Shown here piece by piece: positions 2,521 through 40,224 of a DNA stretch of 43,552 nt (the first letter of the stretch is position 1; each line of letters opens with the position of its first letter). Where the stretch lies: positions 1-43,552 of the IMG/VR virus record IMGVR_UViG_3300033153_016033. One strand, given 5' to 3'. The notes under the pieces were generated by a model. It was not told where the DNA came from. It was given only the letters and a program-made list of their open reading frames with translations, and did no database searches. A program made the position numbers and the translations under genes. Source of the stretch: a virus.

Positions 2521-3159
2521 ATGATGGAAATAAAATGTAAGGAGTGTGGGGAGATGTTTGAGGTATATAACTATAGAAAAGATACTGCAAAATATTGTTC
2601 AAATAAATGTAGATTGATTGCACCAACTAATCTTTTATATAAAGGATGTATCTCATGGTGTAAAGGTAAAAAGAATTTGAAAATAACTGGTAATAAACAT
2701 CCGCTATACAAACACGGCATGAGATTTACTAGATTTTATAGAATATGGGCTGGAATAATAGATCGTACAAAAACTCAAAGGGGTAAATATTATATCGGAA
2801 TTAAAGTCTGTAAACGATGGCAGAAGTTCGAGAATTTCAGAGACGATATGTATTCATCTTACCTAGAACATGTGAAAGAATTTGGAGAAAAGGATACTAC
2901 TATTGATAGATTCCCTAATCAAAAGGGACATTACTCTATTAATAACACTCGTTGGGCTACACGAATAGAACAATCACGAAATAGGGGAGTAGTCAAATTA
3001 TTTACTGCTCATGGAAAAAGTATGACATTACCTGAGTGGGGGAAAAAATTAAACAAAAGACCAAAATTATTATGGCAAAGAATCTATATTGCTAAATGGC
3101 CATTAAAATATTGTTTATCAAGTAAAAATTATTTAAATAATTCACCAGTTAAAAAATAA
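2521..3159 (+). CDS. Mobile endonuclease-like protein (HNH-type, R-W-A-T family)
   Basis: A 212-residue protein with an N-terminal zinc-finger-like unit (CKEC at 6-9, CSNKC about 23-27). It also has the pattern common in phage-borne mobile genes: TRFYRIWAGI, GIKVCKRW, ENFRDDM, then TIDRFPNQKGHYSINNTRWATRIEQSRNR-like blocks. A similar protein occurs at 14624. Proteins of this pattern are often annotated as HNH homing endonucleases; I infer a DNA-binding or nicking role. It runs opposite to all neighbours, between the minus-strand genes at 513 and 3257, and has its own consensus promoter and structured leader. Two tandem ATGs (2521 and 2524) are possible starts. Confidence 0.7.
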   Translation: MMEIKCKECGEMFEVYNYRKDTAKYCSNKCRLIAPTNLLYKGCISWCKGKKNLKITGNKHPLYKHGMRFTRFYRIWAGIIDRTKTQRGKYYIGIKVCKRWQKFENFRDDMYSSYLEHVKEFGEKDTTIDRFPNQKGHYSINNTRWATRIEQSRNRGVVKLFTAHGKSMTLPEWGKKLNKRPKLLWQRIYIAKWPLKYCLSSKNYLNNSPVKK

Positions 3160-14533: not shown

Positions 14534-14562
14534 TTGATAACGCAACCAAGAAATGTTATTAT
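14534..14562 (+). promoter_or_regulatory. Sigma70-type promoter for the endonuclease at 14624
   Basis: TTGATA (14534-14539), a 17-bp spacer and TATTAT (14557-14562) preceded by TGT (an extended -10). The predicted start is about 14569, the first base of the hairpin described next. An 8-bp inverted repeat, GATAACGC (14536-14543) and GCGTTATC (14585-14592), spans the promoter and could be a protein-binding site. Confidence 0.65.
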
Positions 14563-14568
14563 TTAATT

Positions 14569-14613
14569 GCCTCGTGGATTAGATGCGTTATCATCTATGA
14601 AACGAGGCTTTTT
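14569..14613 (+). terminator. Attenuator-like terminator hairpin at the 5' end of the endonuclease mRNA
   Basis: GCCTCGT (14569-14575) pairs with ACGAGGC (14602-14608), followed by five Ts (14609-14613). An inner hairpin TAGATG/CATCTA fills the loop. Because the predicted transcription start coincides with the first stem base, most transcripts would end after about 45 nt unless the hairpin is prevented. This would keep the endonuclease low or conditional. Confidence 0.55.
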
Positions 14614-14623
14614 GATTAATTAT

Positions 14624-15166
14624 ATGAGTAAACACAATTCTAAGGGGCAATTTGCTAAGGGGCATATTCCATGGCATAAAGGCAAGAAATTTCCTGAAAA
14701 GTCAGGGGGGAATAGTCATTTATTTAGACACGGTCTTCGTCATACTAAATTTTATTCTGTTTGGAATGAAATGAAACAACGGTGTTCAAATTCAAACGAT
14801 CCTAATTATCCTCATTATGGTGGTCGAGGAATCACTGTTTGCAAGAAATGGTTAGAATTCACGGGTTTTAGGGATGATATGTATAAAGACTACCTTAAGC
14901 ACAGAAAAAGTAATACTTATACTTCTATCGATAGAATTCATGGGGATAAGGGATACTGTAAATCTAATTGTAAATGGGCAGATTCTATTGAACAGAACAA
15001 TCATACTAGGCGAAATAGAATTATTATTTATAAAGATCGTTCACTAACTCTAGCACAATGGGAAAGGAAAGTTAAAATTCCAGCATACTTAATCAAACAG
15101 AGAATAGATCGTGATAACTGGTCAATAGAAAAGGCGTTAACTACCCAAATAAATAAAAGTATTTAA
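14624..15166 (+). CDS. Mobile endonuclease-like protein (same family as 2521)
   Basis: A 180-residue protein starting at the TATATG context (MSKHNSKGQFAKGHIPW), not at an ATG 19 codons upstream inside the terminator hairpin. The N-terminal GQFAKGHIPWHKGK block is a DNA-binding NUMOD-like motif. It is followed by TKFYSVWNEMKQRCSN, PHYGGRGITVCKKW, FRDDM, TSIDRIHGDKGYCKSNCKWA and SIEQNN. This is the family pattern of the 2521 protein but more complete. The C-terminal LAQWERKVKIPAYLIKQRI resembles a helix-turn-helix. It lies opposite to neighbouring genes and overlaps the stop of the minus gene at 15163 by four bases. Confidence 0.75.
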   Translation: MSKHNSKGQFAKGHIPWHKGKKFPEKSGGNSHLFRHGLRHTKFYSVWNEMKQRCSNSNDPNYPHYGGRGITVCKKWLEFTGFRDDMYKDYLKHRKSNTYTSIDRIHGDKGYCKSNCKWADSIEQNNHTRRNRIIIYKDRSLTLAQWERKVKIPAYLIKQRIDRDNWSIEKALTTQINKSI

Positions 15167-25330: not shown

Positions 25331-25379
25331 ATAGTTCTTATTAGAGTCTTTATAAGTGAGACCAAACTTCACCAAGACC

Positions 25380-25496
25380 TATAAACACAAACAGGAGCGT
25401 CATTTAAGACGCTCCTATCTGGAACATTTAGCCCACGGGGAGTGAGACTTAATGAACCAGATAGGAACACCCTATCTGACTCCCCGTGTGTTTATA
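25380..25496 (-). promoter_or_regulatory. Bistable structured RNA element ahead of the scaffold gene
   Basis: Closing stem TATAAACACA (25380-25389) with TGTGTTTATA (25487-25496). Inside are hairpin AGGAGCGTC (25393-25401) with GACGCTCCT (25408-25416), and stem CACGGGGAGT (25434-25443) with ACTCCCCGTG (25479-25488). The strand at 25457-25465 (CCAGATAGG, plus sense) can pair either with CCTATCTG at 25471-25478 (8 bp, nested) or with CCTATCTGG at 25414-25422 (9 bp, crossing the 25434 stem). The two pairings exclude each other, as in riboswitches. On the coding strand it lies about 50-165 nt ahead of the 25330 start codon. No known riboswitch consensus was recognised. Confidence 0.6.
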
Positions 25497-25513
25497 TTAA
25501 TTTGTAAAATGTA

Positions 25514-33175: not shown

Positions 33176-33351
33176 TCAAGCACTGGAGAAGATAAAATTA
33201 TTATCTCTCCACGACCGACCCGTGATGGTCATCACAGTTATTGCCAGTCGCAGAGCGACTATCCTGTAACAATGACAGGTCAGTTGATAGCTGTACCATA
33301 CTATCGCACACATCTAGTTTAGCTATCCTCATGAGCCGACAGTTGGATAGC
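33170..33351. other. Array of seven intergenic hairpins
   Basis: In order: GTGC/GCAC (33170-33183), GGAGA-a-GATAA/TTATC-TCTCC (33185-33210), GTGAT/ATCAC (33222-33235), AGTCGC/GCGACT (33246-33260), CCTGT/ACAGG (33263-33279), GATAG/CTATC (33286-33305), GCTATCC/GGATAGC (33322-33351). All stems are perfect apart from one bulge, and loops are short. CTATC and GATAG recur, so alternative pairings exist. The region is less AT-rich than its surroundings and has no convincing reading frame. It could be a packaging or replication site or a structured RNA. Confidence 0.55.
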
Positions 33352-33373
33352 GTAAGGATGTAGCATTTTATTA

Positions 33374-33437
33374 ATCTGCTAGGTTCGCATTGTGAAGAGG
33401 CGTGGCAGATGTTACTTAAACAAAAAAAACGAACCTA
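33374..33437 (-). other. H-type pseudoknot-capable element
   Basis: ATCTGC (33374-33379) can pair with GCAGAT (33405-33410), and TAGGTTCG (33380-33387) with CGAACCTA (33430-33437). The strands interleave, and the first strands of both helices abut, which would allow coaxial stacking. On the minus strand an eight-T run follows TAGGTTCG, in the interior of the element. It is next to the hairpin array and downstream of a minus-strand promoter. Confidence 0.5.
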
Positions 33438-33628
33438 AAAATAGCTTCGATCTGTCTCTTCAATTACAAAATAATTAAACATAGTAACGAGCTTAATTGT
33501 TTTATCCACAGTTCAACTCCACTATATCACATTCTTCAATATCGATCAACTCCCCTTATCCCCCCACAAAAAAATCACAACCCAACTTGCTACAAATAAT
33601 AATTCTAGGAATAGAACTGTTAGACCGG
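33438..33628. other. Remainder of the 552-bp gene-free region
   Basis: Between the pseudoknot element and the stop of the cytosine methylase gene lies AT-rich sequence. It contains one candidate minus-strand promoter (33521-33549), a pyrimidine-rich stretch with CCCCTTATCCCCCCAC, and a plus-strand A-run. I see no reading frame with coding character. Confidence 0.5.
33521..33549 (-). promoter_or_regulatory. Minus-strand promoter upstream of the hairpin region
   Basis: On the minus strand TTGATC (33544-33549), a 17-bp spacer and TATAGT (33521-33526) preceded by TGA (an extended -10). The predicted start near 33514 would transcribe the pseudoknot and the hairpin array as an untranslated leader or separate RNA before the packaging genes. 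Confidence 0.5.
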
Positions 33629-35308: not shown

Positions 35309-36673
35309 TTAGTCATTTTGCTGGATAATTCTAGCCCCAGAATAGCAGTGAGGACGGCCAACTTCGTTGGATCTATAATTTCTCAAATACGGAGCATATT
35401 TAAAAATATCTTTATAGAATTTATCATCAGTATCTCGACCCAATCCTTTTTTAGCACAGAAATCACAATATGCCTGATACATTATATCTTTTCTTACATG
35501 GACGAAATCATCTTGATGTGCGGGAGATAGGCAGTTATACACAAAATTAGCTATTGGGTTACTGTTTTGTAACATTTCCTGCTTAATTTCATCTGAACTT
35601 TTATCATAACTAAACCATTTTTGTCTTATTAATCTCTTCAACCCAGTCAAAGCGAAGTTAAACAATCCACTTATTTCAGTAGGAGTACACAGTTTTTCCA
35701 CAAGGAAAGGATCAATATTCTCCTTAGTTATAACATTCTTGAAATTTATTAGCACCCACCTATCAAAATAAGCATCATCATCAATATCATTAACGGCTGG
35801 TATCTTATTACAGATAAAGATTAATTTAGCATAATTCACAAATGGGAACCTCTCACCATACTTATATTCACCGAATATAGGACTTTGGCCAGTAACCATC
35901 TTGAATTTACCTGTGCTTGTAATATCATCGGCACTCATATCATCATAAATATTAGCATACTTATTATATAAATCAGCCAAAGCAAAATGCCTATTCCCTA
36001 ATTCTTGAAGAGATACCCCAGAAATATTAGGAGAACCAAGCATATTGGATAATAATTTAATCAATGTAGTCTTGCTAGTATTTTTTTCTCCACTCAATAT
36101 AAAAGCCTTTTTAATAAAATATTGCCTATATAGGCAAAAACCAAACATCTCTTGCACTAAATCAATATCAGTTGGAGATAATACACTAGCCATAAACTTA
36201 GATACTTCAGGACAATCAGTCTCACCGTCAAAAATTACCGGTATTTTATTGAAGAAATAATATTTATCAGGCTGGTGATCCATCATCTCTAGCGTCTCAA
36301 TATTCAATATCCCATTCTCCATATTAATCAAATCCTTATTTTGAACATCTATCTCCTCCCTATCCTTAGTGCATCTGTTTTTAACCTGCTCTATTATCTC
36401 TGAATAAAAACCATTACAATATATATCCTCTAAAATACCTTGCACATATTCCTTAATGAAATTAGTAGCTTTCTGGTATACCCCATCCTTATAGATAAAT
36501 ATGTCCCTCTTAAAATCTCCAAGAGCAAGACAATCAAACTCTTCTGTAATATATTTAGCCACCTCAAAAATGCCTTTCTTGGTTTGGGGTTTTAGAACTT
36601 TGCCGTTGCTCCCCTTTTTAACCAAGAAATAATCTTTTAGCTGCCCATGTTGCACTCTAGTGTCTAGCTCCAT
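35309..36673 (-). CDS. D5-type SF3 helicase (primase-helicase C-terminal part)
   Basis: A 454-residue protein; the start MELDTRVQHGQ is chosen for its ATATATG context, and another ATG lies seven codons upstream. A D5_N-like region (about 90-190) precedes the SF3 ATPase. Walker A is FILSGEKNTSKTTLIKLL at about 191-208, with Ser where Gly normally precedes Lys. Walker B-like YANIYDDMS is at about 239-247, and the sensor/motif C KLIFICNKIPAVNDIDDDAY at about 284-303, followed by FDRW. There is no N-terminal primase domain. It likely unwinds phage DNA at replication; the rest of the replisome would be host-supplied. Confidence 0.85.
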   Translation of the reverse strand: MELDTRVQHGQLKDYFLVKKGSNGKVLKPQTKKGIFEVAKYITEEFDCLALGDFKRDIFIYKDGVYQKATNFIKEYVQGILEDIYCNGFYSEIIEQVKNRCTKDREEIDVQNKDLINMENGILNIETLEMMDHQPDKYYFFNKIPVIFDGETDCPEVSKFMASVLSPTDIDLVQEMFGFCLYRQYFIKKAFILSGEKNTSKTTLIKLLSNMLGSPNISGVSLQELGNRHFALADLYNKYANIYDDMSADDITSTGKFKMVTGQSPIFGEYKYGERFPFVNYAKLIFICNKIPAVNDIDDDAYFDRWVLINFKNVITKENIDPFLVEKLCTPTEISGLFNFALTGLKRLIRQKWFSYDKSSDEIKQEMLQNSNPIANFVYNCLSPAHQDDFVHVRKDIMYQAYCDFCAKKGLGRDTDDKFYKDIFKYAPYLRNYRSNEVGRPHCYSGARIIQQND

Positions 36674-36869
36674 ATATTTTATATTCAGCTTCAATGGCTT
36701 CTAATTGCTTCTCAATATATTCTTTTTCAGTAAATAATTCCTTATATTCTTTCACTAACTTTTCCCTTTTCCTAGCCACAAATGGCAAATTATACCATTC
36801 CTGATTGAGTTTAGCTTCTAAGTCTTTGTGTTGATATTCTCTTTTCTTTATTTCGTCTTTATAATTCAT
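36657..36869 (-). CDS. Small coiled-coil protein
   Basis: A 70-residue charged helical protein (MNYKDEIKKREYQHKDLEAK, EKEYIEKQLEAIEAEYKIYG). It overlaps the HNH gene stop upstream by four bases and the helicase start downstream by 17 bases, so all three are coupled. Function unknown; it may be a helicase-associated factor. Confidence 0.6.
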   Translation of the reverse strand: MNYKDEIKKREYQHKDLEAKLNQEWYNLPFVARKREKLVKEYKELFTEKEYIEKQLEAIEAEYKIYGARH

Positions 36870-37369
36870 TTATTTGATTTACCGCTATTACACTCAAAAC
36901 ATAATGTTTGTAAATTATCTTTAATTGTTTTACCTCCCTTACTGATTGGTACGATATGATCTACGACTAATTTTGCGTCGCTTCCGCTTCTTCCACATAA
37001 ATGACAAGCAAATTCATCTTGTCTCATAATTTCATATCTTAATCCGTTCGTTATTTTATTTCGCTCTATGCTTCCTTTTCTTTTCTTTTTGTCTTCATCT
37101 TCGGTTATATCATTGACATAATTATGACTTTCTAACGCTATTTCACTACCATCTATACAAGAAGCGGCGGCGAAATATATTACTTGAGTTAATGGCACTG
37201 CAAAATTAATAAAACATGATTTTTCATCTTTTTTAATAAACAATATCATCCCATCTTGTATTTCTACTAGATCAGCATAAAGATAAATTTCTTCATCTCT
37301 TGCCCAAGGTAATTTATTTTTAAATCTAATCACCCAATAATATTGTCCATATTGATTTGGTTTGCTCAT
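36866..37369 (-). CDS. HNH endonuclease with N-terminal beta domain
   Basis: A 167-residue protein. Residues 1-95 form a beta-rich domain (YYWVIRFKNKLPWARDEEIY, LFIKKDEKSCFINFAVPL) not typical of homing enzymes. Residues about 105-167 are a classical HNH nuclease: RYEIMRQDEFACHLCGRSG, then VVDHIVPISKGGKTIKDNLQ, then CFECNSGKSNK. The His of VDH and the two CxxC pairs are intact. It is encoded in the replication segment and coupled to the next gene, so a resident phage role such as packaging or replication is as likely as homing. Confidence 0.8.
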   Translation of the reverse strand: MSKPNQYGQYYWVIRFKNKLPWARDEEIYLYADLVEIQDGMILFIKKDEKSCFINFAVPLTQVIYFAAASCIDGSEIALESHNYVNDITEDEDKKKRKGSIERNKITNGLRYEIMRQDEFACHLCGRSGSDAKLVVDHIVPISKGGKTIKDNLQTLCFECNSGKSNK

Positions 37370-37399: not shown

Positions 37400-37555
37400 T
37401 TATTTTCCTGTAAAAAATATCTGTATTTCTTCTTTAACTTGATCAATAGTTGGAACAACTATTTTATAACTTTCCTCGGTGAAAAAGTTAAAATGTATAA
37501 TATAGCCATTATCAGCTTTATCAATCAAAATATCTTGTGGTGAAAAATTTGTCAT
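37400..37555 (-). CDS. Small hypothetical protein, 51 residues
   Basis: A short protein (MTNFSPQDILIDKADNGYII, then HFNFFTEESYKIVVPTIDQV) of beta-alpha character with a regular fold-like pattern. The start has the typical AAATTTAAATATATG context. It is the first gene downstream of the candidate small RNA at 37608-37735, which ends in a terminator about 50 bases upstream. Function unknown. Confidence 0.6.
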   Translation of the reverse strand: MTNFSPQDILIDKADNGYIIHFNFFTEESYKIVVPTIDQVKEEIQIFFTGK

Positions 37556-37607
37556 ATATTTAAATTTTTAATTATTAACTAACGACCTTGAAAATCATAT
37601 TAAATAC

Positions 37608-37671
37608 AAAAAACCCATAACTGCCGAGGTTCTATACCGCAAAGTATGCCACCTCTAACAATTATGGGGTT
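37608..37671 (-). terminator. Intrinsic terminator ending the structured RNA
   Basis: The AACCCCATAA/TTATGGGTT stem (one bulged base) with an inner GAGGT/ACCTC helix is followed on the minus strand by six Ts (37613-37608). Confidence 0.6.
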
Positions 37672-37735
37672 CCTGATTTTAATATGATTTTGCGGTATAG
37701 TATTTGGCATAGGTTGTTGATAACTTTAATTCACT
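37608..37735 (-). ncRNA. Candidate 128-nt small RNA or attenuator
   Basis: On the minus strand a promoter at 37742-37770 leads into a highly structured segment ending in six Ts. The terminator stem pairs 37662-37671 with 37612-37620 (CCCATAA core), with an inner GAGGT/ACCTC stem (37651-37655 with 37626-37630). The loop holds TTTGCGGTATAG (37632-37643), perfectly complementary over 12 bases to upstream CTATACCGCAAA (37689-37700). TGGCATA (37645-37651) also matches upstream TATGCCA (37705-37711). Upstream pairing would cross the terminator helix. A further 14-bp pair (37591-37604 with 37678-37691) encloses the terminator. It may be an independent RNA or a conditional terminator before the 37555 gene. 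Confidence 0.6.
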
Positions 37736-37741
37736 AATTTA

Positions 37742-37770
37742 ATTATACACCCCTCCCCCCTCAATATCAA
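37742..37770 (-). promoter_or_regulatory. Sigma70-type promoter embedded in a repeated hairpin
   Basis: On the minus strand TTGATA (37765-37770), a 17-bp spacer and TATAAT (37742-37747). The -35 lies in the loop of the C6/G6 hairpin that is repeated on the other side of the adenine methylase gene. If the hairpin extruded or was bound, the promoter would be affected. Predicted start about 37735. Confidence 0.6.
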
Positions 37771-37776
37771 GGGGGG
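37752..37776. repeat. 25-bp hairpin repeat, copy 1
   Basis: Six Cs, the spacer TCAATATCAA and six Gs form a strong hairpin; the 25 bases including flanking CCT are identical to copy 2 at 38228-38252. It lies five bases past the stop of the adenine methylase gene. It also contains the -35 of the promoter for the structured RNA. Confidence 0.85.
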
Positions 37777-37781
37777 CAAAC

Positions 37782-38210
37782 TTATCTATAAATAACTATC
37801 ATACTAGGAAAAGGAGCAGAATTTTTACTGTTACTAAATTTTAACCTTCCCTTTAAAAATCTAATTTCTACATTTTTCTTTTTATAAATATAATCATGAA
37901 ACCATTTAGTATCTGTTCTAGCTGGGAGAAGTGCTACTGTCGTTTGTTGATCCCTTTTAGCGTGCATATATGCTTTTCTAACCCATATTCCTATATCTCG
38001 TCCATAAGGAGGATTCATCCAGTTGACTTCACCCCAATCATTAGTAAGTCCACTTATTGTTTTTGACCAAAAATTATCTCCACATTTACTATTTTCTTTT
38101 GTAGCACAAACATCCCATGTAAAATTAAATTCTTCATTTAACTCATCAAATAATAACTGCGGAGTTTCCCATTCTTCTGAGTTAGATGTAAATAGTGATT
38201 TATTAATCAT
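37782..38210 (-). CDS. Phage DNA N6-adenine methyltransferase (Dam-like)
   Basis: A 142-residue protein of the compact phage Dam family. The N-terminus has the family's EEWETPQLLFDELNEEFNFT with WDVCATKENSKC. The catalytic motif is NPPYGRDIG (Asn-Pro-Pro-Tyr, about residues 65-73). The C-terminus has PARTDTKWFHDYI and FLKGRLKFSNSKNSAPFPSM. It methylates adenine in DNA, probably to evade host restriction. It is flanked on both sides by the same 25-bp hairpin repeat. Confidence 0.88.
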   Translation of the reverse strand: MINKSLFTSNSEEWETPQLLFDELNEEFNFTWDVCATKENSKCGDNFWSKTISGLTNDWGEVNWMNPPYGRDIGIWVRKAYMHAKRDQQTTVALLPARTDTKWFHDYIYKKKNVEIRFLKGRLKFSNSKNSAPFPSMIVIYR

Positions 38211-38227
38211 AATTTTTTTTAATTATT

Positions 38228-38252
38228 CCTCCCCCCTCAATATCAAGGGGGG
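38228..38252. repeat. 25-bp hairpin repeat, copy 2
   Basis: Identical to copy 1 at 37752-37776, 476 bp apart in the same orientation. It lies just upstream of the adenine methylase start on the minus strand. No well-placed -10 follows, so unlike copy 1 it does not make a convincing promoter. Confidence 0.85.
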
Positions 38253-39805: not shown

Positions 39806-39835
39806 AGGGGTGGATAAGTTAATTGGTATGATTGT

Positions 39836-39864
39836 AGTGTATCATTATATTCGTAGGTATGCAA
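39836..39864 (-). promoter_or_regulatory. Promoter of the minus-strand replication genes
   Basis: On the minus strand TTGCAT (39859-39864), a 17-bp spacer and TACACT (39836-39841) preceded by TGA. The -35 overlaps the first copy of a 12-base repeat (39852-39863), so a repressor bound there would block it. Confidence 0.5.
39852..39863. promoter_or_regulatory. Candidate operator, copy 1
   Basis: CGTAGGTATGCA overlaps the -35 of the minus-strand promoter. A near copy (10 of 12 bases) lies at 39914-39925. An inverted TATGCA/TGCATA pair (39858-39863 and 39876-39881) also starts here. Confidence 0.4.
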
Positions 39865-39913
39865 ATGCGTATCTGTGCATAAGTATTTTAAATCAATGTT
39901 TATAGGGTCGTTG

Positions 39914-39925
39914 CGTAGGCTTGCA
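39914..39925. promoter_or_regulatory. Candidate operator, copy 2
   Basis: CGTAGGCTTGCA overlaps the -35 of the plus-strand promoter, in the same orientation as copy 1 and 62 bases away. The arrangement suggests that the XRE-like protein or a host factor could control both directions. Confidence 0.4.
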
Positions 39926-39949
39926 TATATTTTCCAGATATGTTACAAT
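39921..39949 (+). promoter_or_regulatory. Early plus-strand promoter
   Basis: TTGCAT (39921-39926), a 17-bp spacer and TACAAT (39944-39949) preceded by TGT (an extended -10). The predicted start near 39956 gives a short AT-rich leader before the regulator's ATG at 39973. It is the likely promoter of the plus-strand operon running to the right edge. Confidence 0.65.
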
Positions 39950-39972
39950 ATAATTACAATTAAAAATAATAT

Positions 39973-40224
39973 ATGCACCCATTAGAAAAGTTAAAACAAA
40001 TGAGCGGTAAAGGTCTAGTTGATTTTTGTAAGAATCTAGATATCCATCACGAAACTTATCGTAAAATTATTACAGGTAATGTCCTCAATATGAGTCTTAA
40101 TGCTTTTATTAAAATTGAAAAAAATACTGGTTTGAGTTTTGAGAAGTTAGTTGATGTTAGAAAAATATTTAAAATAATTCAAGAAGATAAGACTAAAAAA
40201 GAAGAGTTTAAAATTAAAAATTAA
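39973..40224 (+). CDS. XRE-like helix-turn-helix regulator
   Basis: An 83-residue protein. Residues about 12-60 (GKGLVDFCKNLDIHHETYRK, then NMSLNAFIKIEKNTGLSFEK) fit a Cro/CI-type helix-turn-helix, with the recognition helix around HHETYRKII. A Lys-rich tail follows. It is the first gene of the plus-strand operon and is flanked by divergent promoters with repeated sites, so it probably regulates the early/late choice. There is no integrase, so a lysogeny role is not implied. Confidence 0.75.
   Translation: MHPLEKLKQMSGKGLVDFCKNLDIHHETYRKIITGNVLNMSLNAFIKIEKNTGLSFEKLVDVRKIFKIIQEDKTKKEEFKIKN

Follow-up and report, generated by a model that had tools for sequence, protein, structure and literature searches.

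A non-coding segment on the minus strand of a virus genome, ending in a hairpin and a run of six T residues, is tentatively read as a cis-acting transcription attenuator, that is, a leader in which a terminator and an antiterminator would compete; a probability of about 0.45 is given to this reading. The window analyzed was the whole IMG/VR virus record (43,552 bases, listed as linear, 35.6% G+C). Genes of the terminase, capsid and tail types are present, mostly on the minus strand. Close relatives of the record were not found among 50,697 phage records; in the same set, the primase was matched at about 32% identity or less and a 649-aa protein gave zero matches.

Gene neighbourhood

The element (37608-37770) sits in a 226-base gap between the gene for a Dam-type N6-adenine methyltransferase (37782-38210; PF05869, 3.4e-25) and a 51-aa gene (37400-37555), whose product has no family match. 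On the minus strand the order is methyltransferase, element, 51-aa gene, HNH endonuclease gene (36866-37369; PF01844, 3.2e-14) and, in the same gene run, a D5-type primase-helicase gene (35309-36694), assigned from D5_N/DUF5906 domain matches. This position favors an attenuator: the element is flanked by two genes of the same direction, and between the T6 tract and the 51-aa gene no promoter reaches 11/12 of the consensus.

The HNH protein was also considered as an IscB-like RNA-guided nuclease and rejected, the IscB model having matched over the HNH part only, with 38 bits against a cut-off of 175 bits. The closest relatives of the primase in genome contigs come mostly from archaeal assemblies (Bathyarchaeota, Thermoplasmata; about 38% identity), despite which perfect sigma-70-type promoters occur in the window. 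The 51-aa gene starts in the context TTAATAATTAA..ATATG, which is common in this phage. Throughout the window Shine-Dalgarno sequences are almost absent from the genes, and an AT-rich start context like TTAATTAA is found about 10-20 nt before ATATG; together, these two traits hint at an unusual host.

Promoter-like site and 22-nt repeat

A TTGATA-17-TATAAT promoter had been proposed on the minus strand, and the site is there (37742-37770): TTGATA at 37770-37765, a 17-nt spacer and TATAAT at 37747-37742. With 11/12 consensus matches, it is one of three sites in the window that reach at least that score. Its -35 hexamer is contained in a 22-nt hairpin repeat, CCCCCCTTGATATTGAGGGGGG (37755-37776, minus strand; -14.8 kcal/mol), located right behind the methyltransferase stop. 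A second, identical copy (38231-38252, minus strand) lies upstream of the methyltransferase start without a suitably spaced -10 box, which makes the promoter more doubtful than its 11/12 score would imply. Zero such matches are expected by chance. The copies stand on either side of the methyltransferase gene, which gives it the look of a cassette; the repeat was not found in viral contigs.

Terminator hairpin and loop complement

Downstream of the promoter-like site runs the 128-nt minus-strand segment, which is non-coding and ends, as originally predicted, in a hairpin followed by T6 (37608-37613). The terminator hairpin (37614-37668, computed fold) is formed by CCCATAATTG/CAGTTATGGG and an inner GAGGT/ACCTC stem. 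The 12-base loop complement can be read directly in the sequence and is perfect: segment X, CTATACCGCAAA (37700-37689), against the loop segment X', TTTGCGGTATAG (37643-37632). A complement of at least 12 bases within 128 nt was obtained in 1 of 2000 first-order shuffles.

The further crossing helix of the original prediction, between TATGCCA (37711-37705) and TGGCATA (37651-37645), fared less well. Both motifs are present, and the helix itself is unconvincing, being near chance level (estimated at about 2%). The 5' segment that contains TATGCCA has another partner in the 3' arm of the terminator (37625-37622 and 37617-37612); the minimum free energy (MFE) fold pairs this antiterminator segment, AACCTATGCC (37706-37715), with the arm at 37612-37625. 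The competing structure needs no crossing helix, since it is nested, with the 12-bp helix enclosed by the pairing between the 5' segment and the 3' arm of the terminator. A pseudoknot at the element is sterically possible.

Competing folds

Folding was computed for the RNA ending at T6 and for the growing chain. At the T6 end, the antiterminator (-28.1 kcal/mol) and the terminator (-27.5 kcal/mol) are mutually exclusive and lie within 0.6 kcal/mol of each other. In the growing chain, 37689-37700 and 37632-37643 form their 12-bp helix as soon as the loop has been made (-18.6); the 3' arm of the terminator then supplies GGCA and UGGGUU as partners for 37706-37715, at -22.9 and, at the T6 end, -28.1. 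On the assumption that RNA polymerase hides the last 12-14 nt, pairing through X leads by about 8.5 kcal/mol at the decision point. A hairpin with a T-tract lies between the promoter-like site and the 51-aa gene, together with an exclusive antiterminator of similar stability, as is generic for attenuators that use an intrinsic terminator.

A plain terminator closing the methyltransferase unit, with complementarity due to chance and no switching, is quite improbable. The joint fold gained 10.0, as compared to 1.2 +/- 1.8 when the upstream part was shuffled, and only 4 of 1000 shuffles were as good; the rarity of a perfect 12-base complement and the recurrence of the design at two other places in the window (described below) also speak against it. 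In its favor, the invasion energy falls inside the range of other terminator-like sites: calculated uniformly, it is 6.7 here and at least 7 in 453 of 1751 sites from other loci, which places the element only in the upper third of a control set that is unproven and often of higher G+C. Since the element is unexceptional among these sites, energy alone is no proof of a switch.

Outer stem and strand asymmetry

The hairpin runs past the T6 tract, a feature missed in the original prediction: a perfect 14-bp outer stem joins 37678-37691 with 37591-37604, so that the extended hairpin (37591-37691, minus strand) has 33-nt arms (37591-37623/37659-37691). Most of the fold signal is carried by this stem; the z-score is -1.7 for the 128 nt to T6, -6.2 for 37585-37735 and -5.5 to the ATG. 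After the outer arm has been made, the long hairpin (-49.7, to the ATG) is preferred over the antiterminator form (-32.8).

These values are the basis of the main rival to the attenuator, in which the long hairpin, with T6 buried in its 3' arm, is itself functional in mRNA processing, stabilization or insulation, for instance as an RNase III site between the methyltransferase and 51-aa genes, and the loop complement is secondary. We consider this somewhat unlikely. It agrees with the rise in z-score once the outer stem is included and with the final fold; a second such hairpin with a loop-complementary flank is found at 2438-2507, just upstream of an HNH-type gene starting at 2521, and seg43 of Aeromonas phage 25 has a hairpin of high stability that does not cover the ribosome site (PMC2988022). 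It leaves unexplained the 12-base perfect loop complement and the position of T6 right behind a GC-rich stem.

The outer stem also bears on the choice, left open in the original prediction, between an attenuator and a free RNA. The attenuator is preferred on the strength of the computed two-state folding and the position, and a free RNA is less favored because the hairpin extends beyond T6. As a free small RNA, the segment would be a self-contained unit of about 128 nt, delimited by the 11/12 site and T6 as its own promoter and terminator and with the 5' part anchored to the terminator loop, much as element A of this window (see below) resembles such a unit and is followed by a gene with its own 12/12 promoter at 2393. 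This reading is improbable here, given that the other copy of the repeat holding the -35 is no promoter and that neither an Rfam match nor relatives were found.

The minus-strand RNA folds better (-46.8, z -6.2) than the plus-strand RNA (-38.5, z -3.8), because several mismatches of the DNA palindrome become G-U pairs in the minus-strand RNA only. As this is the direction of the operon, a role as RNA on the transcribed strand is favored. A very improbable DNA-level alternative would make the inverted repeats, about 1 kb upstream of the D5-type primase gene, a replication origin, cruciform or operator; besides the strand asymmetry, the loop motif is not clustered as iterons would be and the cumulative GC-skew minimum of the window (39757) lies away from the element, and the iteron or origin idea was dropped on these two grounds. 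Separately, a divergent region at 39806-39972, flanked by the early genes of the minus strand and by a small gene on the plus strand (39973-40224; helix-turn-helix-like by eye, no Pfam match), is a possible control region or origin.

Recurrence of the design

The design, in which the loop of a hairpin with a terminal T run is complementary to a 5' segment, had been likened to that at 2219-2311, and the likeness holds at the level of topology. Scans of the window recovered two plus-strand sites, element A (2218-2311), upstream of an HNH-type gene (2521-3159), and element B (14535-14613), directly upstream of another (14624-15166); the element at 37608-37770 was recovered only when more G-U pairs were allowed. 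Shuffled sequences gave about 0.09 sites per window, under a stricter stem rule. The two folds of A are close to balanced (-25.0 vs. -26.3) and those of B are not (-16.1 vs. -24.9). The joint-fold test for B showed no excess over chance (261 of 1000 shuffles). Because X of element B is itself part of a small 5' hairpin, a loop-loop kiss is a possible form of the contact.

The genes at 2521 and 14624 are homologous (37% identical) and have homologues in Pseudomonas phage D3, Twort and other phages. Elements A and B directly precede these homologues of phage HNH proteins; at 37608-37770, the 51-aa gene comes first and an HNH gene of a different family second. That A, B and the present element form a phage-specific class of leader switches, three sequence-unrelated copies in which a 5' segment invades the terminator loop and HNH endonuclease genes are throttled, is unlikely on present evidence; if true, it would amount to a shared throttle on potentially harmful nucleases.

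The plus-strand hairpin within 2438-2507, whose 25-nt-arm structure occupies 2446-2507 and which lies behind the 12/12 promoter at 2393, carries a loop (CCCCAGGTT) complementary to its 5' flank (AACCTGGGG). Two other RNA-like stretches were observed on the minus strand. Between two structural-region genes, a 110-nt element (25378-25498) has a perfect closing stem, TATAAACACA/TGTGTTTATA, with competing internal pairs; its fold (MFE -59.9 kcal/mol, z -10.1) is stronger than that of the element at 37608-37770, it is identical in two sister contigs and it has no Rfam match. About 450 nt at 33176-33628 appear to be non-coding and contain many hairpins (z -3.1 for 33180-33500), including a crossing of TGAAGAG/CTCTTCA with TAGGTTCG/CGAACCTA around a T8 run.

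Searches for relatives

No relatives of the element were found by blastn against phages, plasmids and all fetched loci, in viral contigs queried with the 51-aa protein, the 22-nt repeat, the HNH protein, the primase, the terminase and the methyltransferase, or in genome contigs through the primase alignment. The sister contigs of the same phage end short of this stretch. At the Rfam gathering score there was no match in the window, and 37500-37800 gave only sub-threshold eukaryotic miRNA and snoRNA noise; no known RNA family or ribozyme was matched. In 1.79 Mb around relatives of the HNH and primase genes, 20 sites of the design (some of them duplicates) were found, against about 9 expected, and none of the 20 has a 12-base complement. 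No loop-complement leader was seen at phage HNH relatives in 50 HNH loci and six annotated phage regions.

Discussion

The attenuator reading draws on the rare 12-base complement, two folds of nearly equal energy, the joint-fold excess, the minus-strand asymmetry and the recurrence of the design. Against it, the fold signal is strongest in the outer stem, a part that a plain attenuator could dispense with; the invasion energy is unexceptional; and no homologue was found from which covariation could be read. In the proposed mechanism, the leader would control the share of transcription, whether arriving from the methyltransferase side of the operon or started at the internal promoter, that continues into the 51-aa, HNH and primase genes. 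When the polymerase is at the U-tract, 37706-37715 and 37689-37700 would already be paired with the loop and would go on to pair with the 3' arm of the terminator, blocking terminator formation. If these 5' segments were occupied, the hairpin at 37614-37668 would form and transcription would end at T6. The read-through RNA would refold into the long hairpin with its 14-bp outer stem, and the start of the 51-aa gene would stay largely accessible. We infer transcription and termination here, as well as a factor that sets the balance (an RNA in trans, a protein or the speed of the polymerase); alternatively, the leader may fix one constant read-through fraction. No leader peptide, strong antisense promoter or ligand motif was found at the element.

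Attenuators with exclusive folds are already well known. In pT181 and pIP501, the ON fold and the terminator of an untranslated leader exclude each other, and the terminator forms once a 5' segment is occupied (PMC3753616). Exclusive leader folds, and termination upon 5'-segment occupation, would be common to the element and these plasmids, but most of the pairing of its 5' segment is with the terminator loop and neither an antisense transcript nor a strong promoter was found across it: near the element there are only weak 9/12 plus-strand sites, and the one at 37717-37746 reads away from it.

In phage P4, pairing of short complementary leader segments (CI RNA with seqA and seqC) decides premature termination in an operon that leads to replication genes (PMC4825925). 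A P4-type primase lies downstream of the element too, a parallel that is our own inference. Pairing in P4 causes termination and the processed RNA acts in antisense, whereas pairing in the element is predicted to prevent termination. The element has a single complementary segment and no sequence similarity to P4 was found; a search for a P4-like third segment returned one perfect complement, upstream, plus scattered one-mismatch matches.

Phage homing endonuclease genes (T4 mobE, segF and I-TevI; seg43 of Aeromonas phage 25) are kept in check by an intrinsic terminator at the 5' end or by a stable hairpin ahead of the start (PMC2988022). The element, too, may act as a terminator or stable hairpin ahead of endonuclease genes; a loop-complementary 5' segment is not described for those leaders (PMC2988022), and here the 51-aa gene separates the element from the HNH gene. 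T-box, PyrR and other leader attenuators fold to a terminator or an antiterminator (PMC7430163), as is computed for the element, which differs in scoring below every Rfam gathering score and in that no ligand, tRNA or protein-binding features were identified. The element appears to resemble attenuators, the P4 leader and homing-endonuclease leaders in part and by sequence belongs to none of them, and its own sequence is without a found relative. The predicted leader is plausible as a regulator of an ordinary kind.

At present the structure is well supported and the function is predicted. If the reading is true, the element would provide a compact, ligand-free way of setting read-through within a phage operon, ahead of endonuclease genes. 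The mechanism would then operate in a phage lineage without a cultured relative, and it would be recognizable elsewhere by its topology, not by its sequence.
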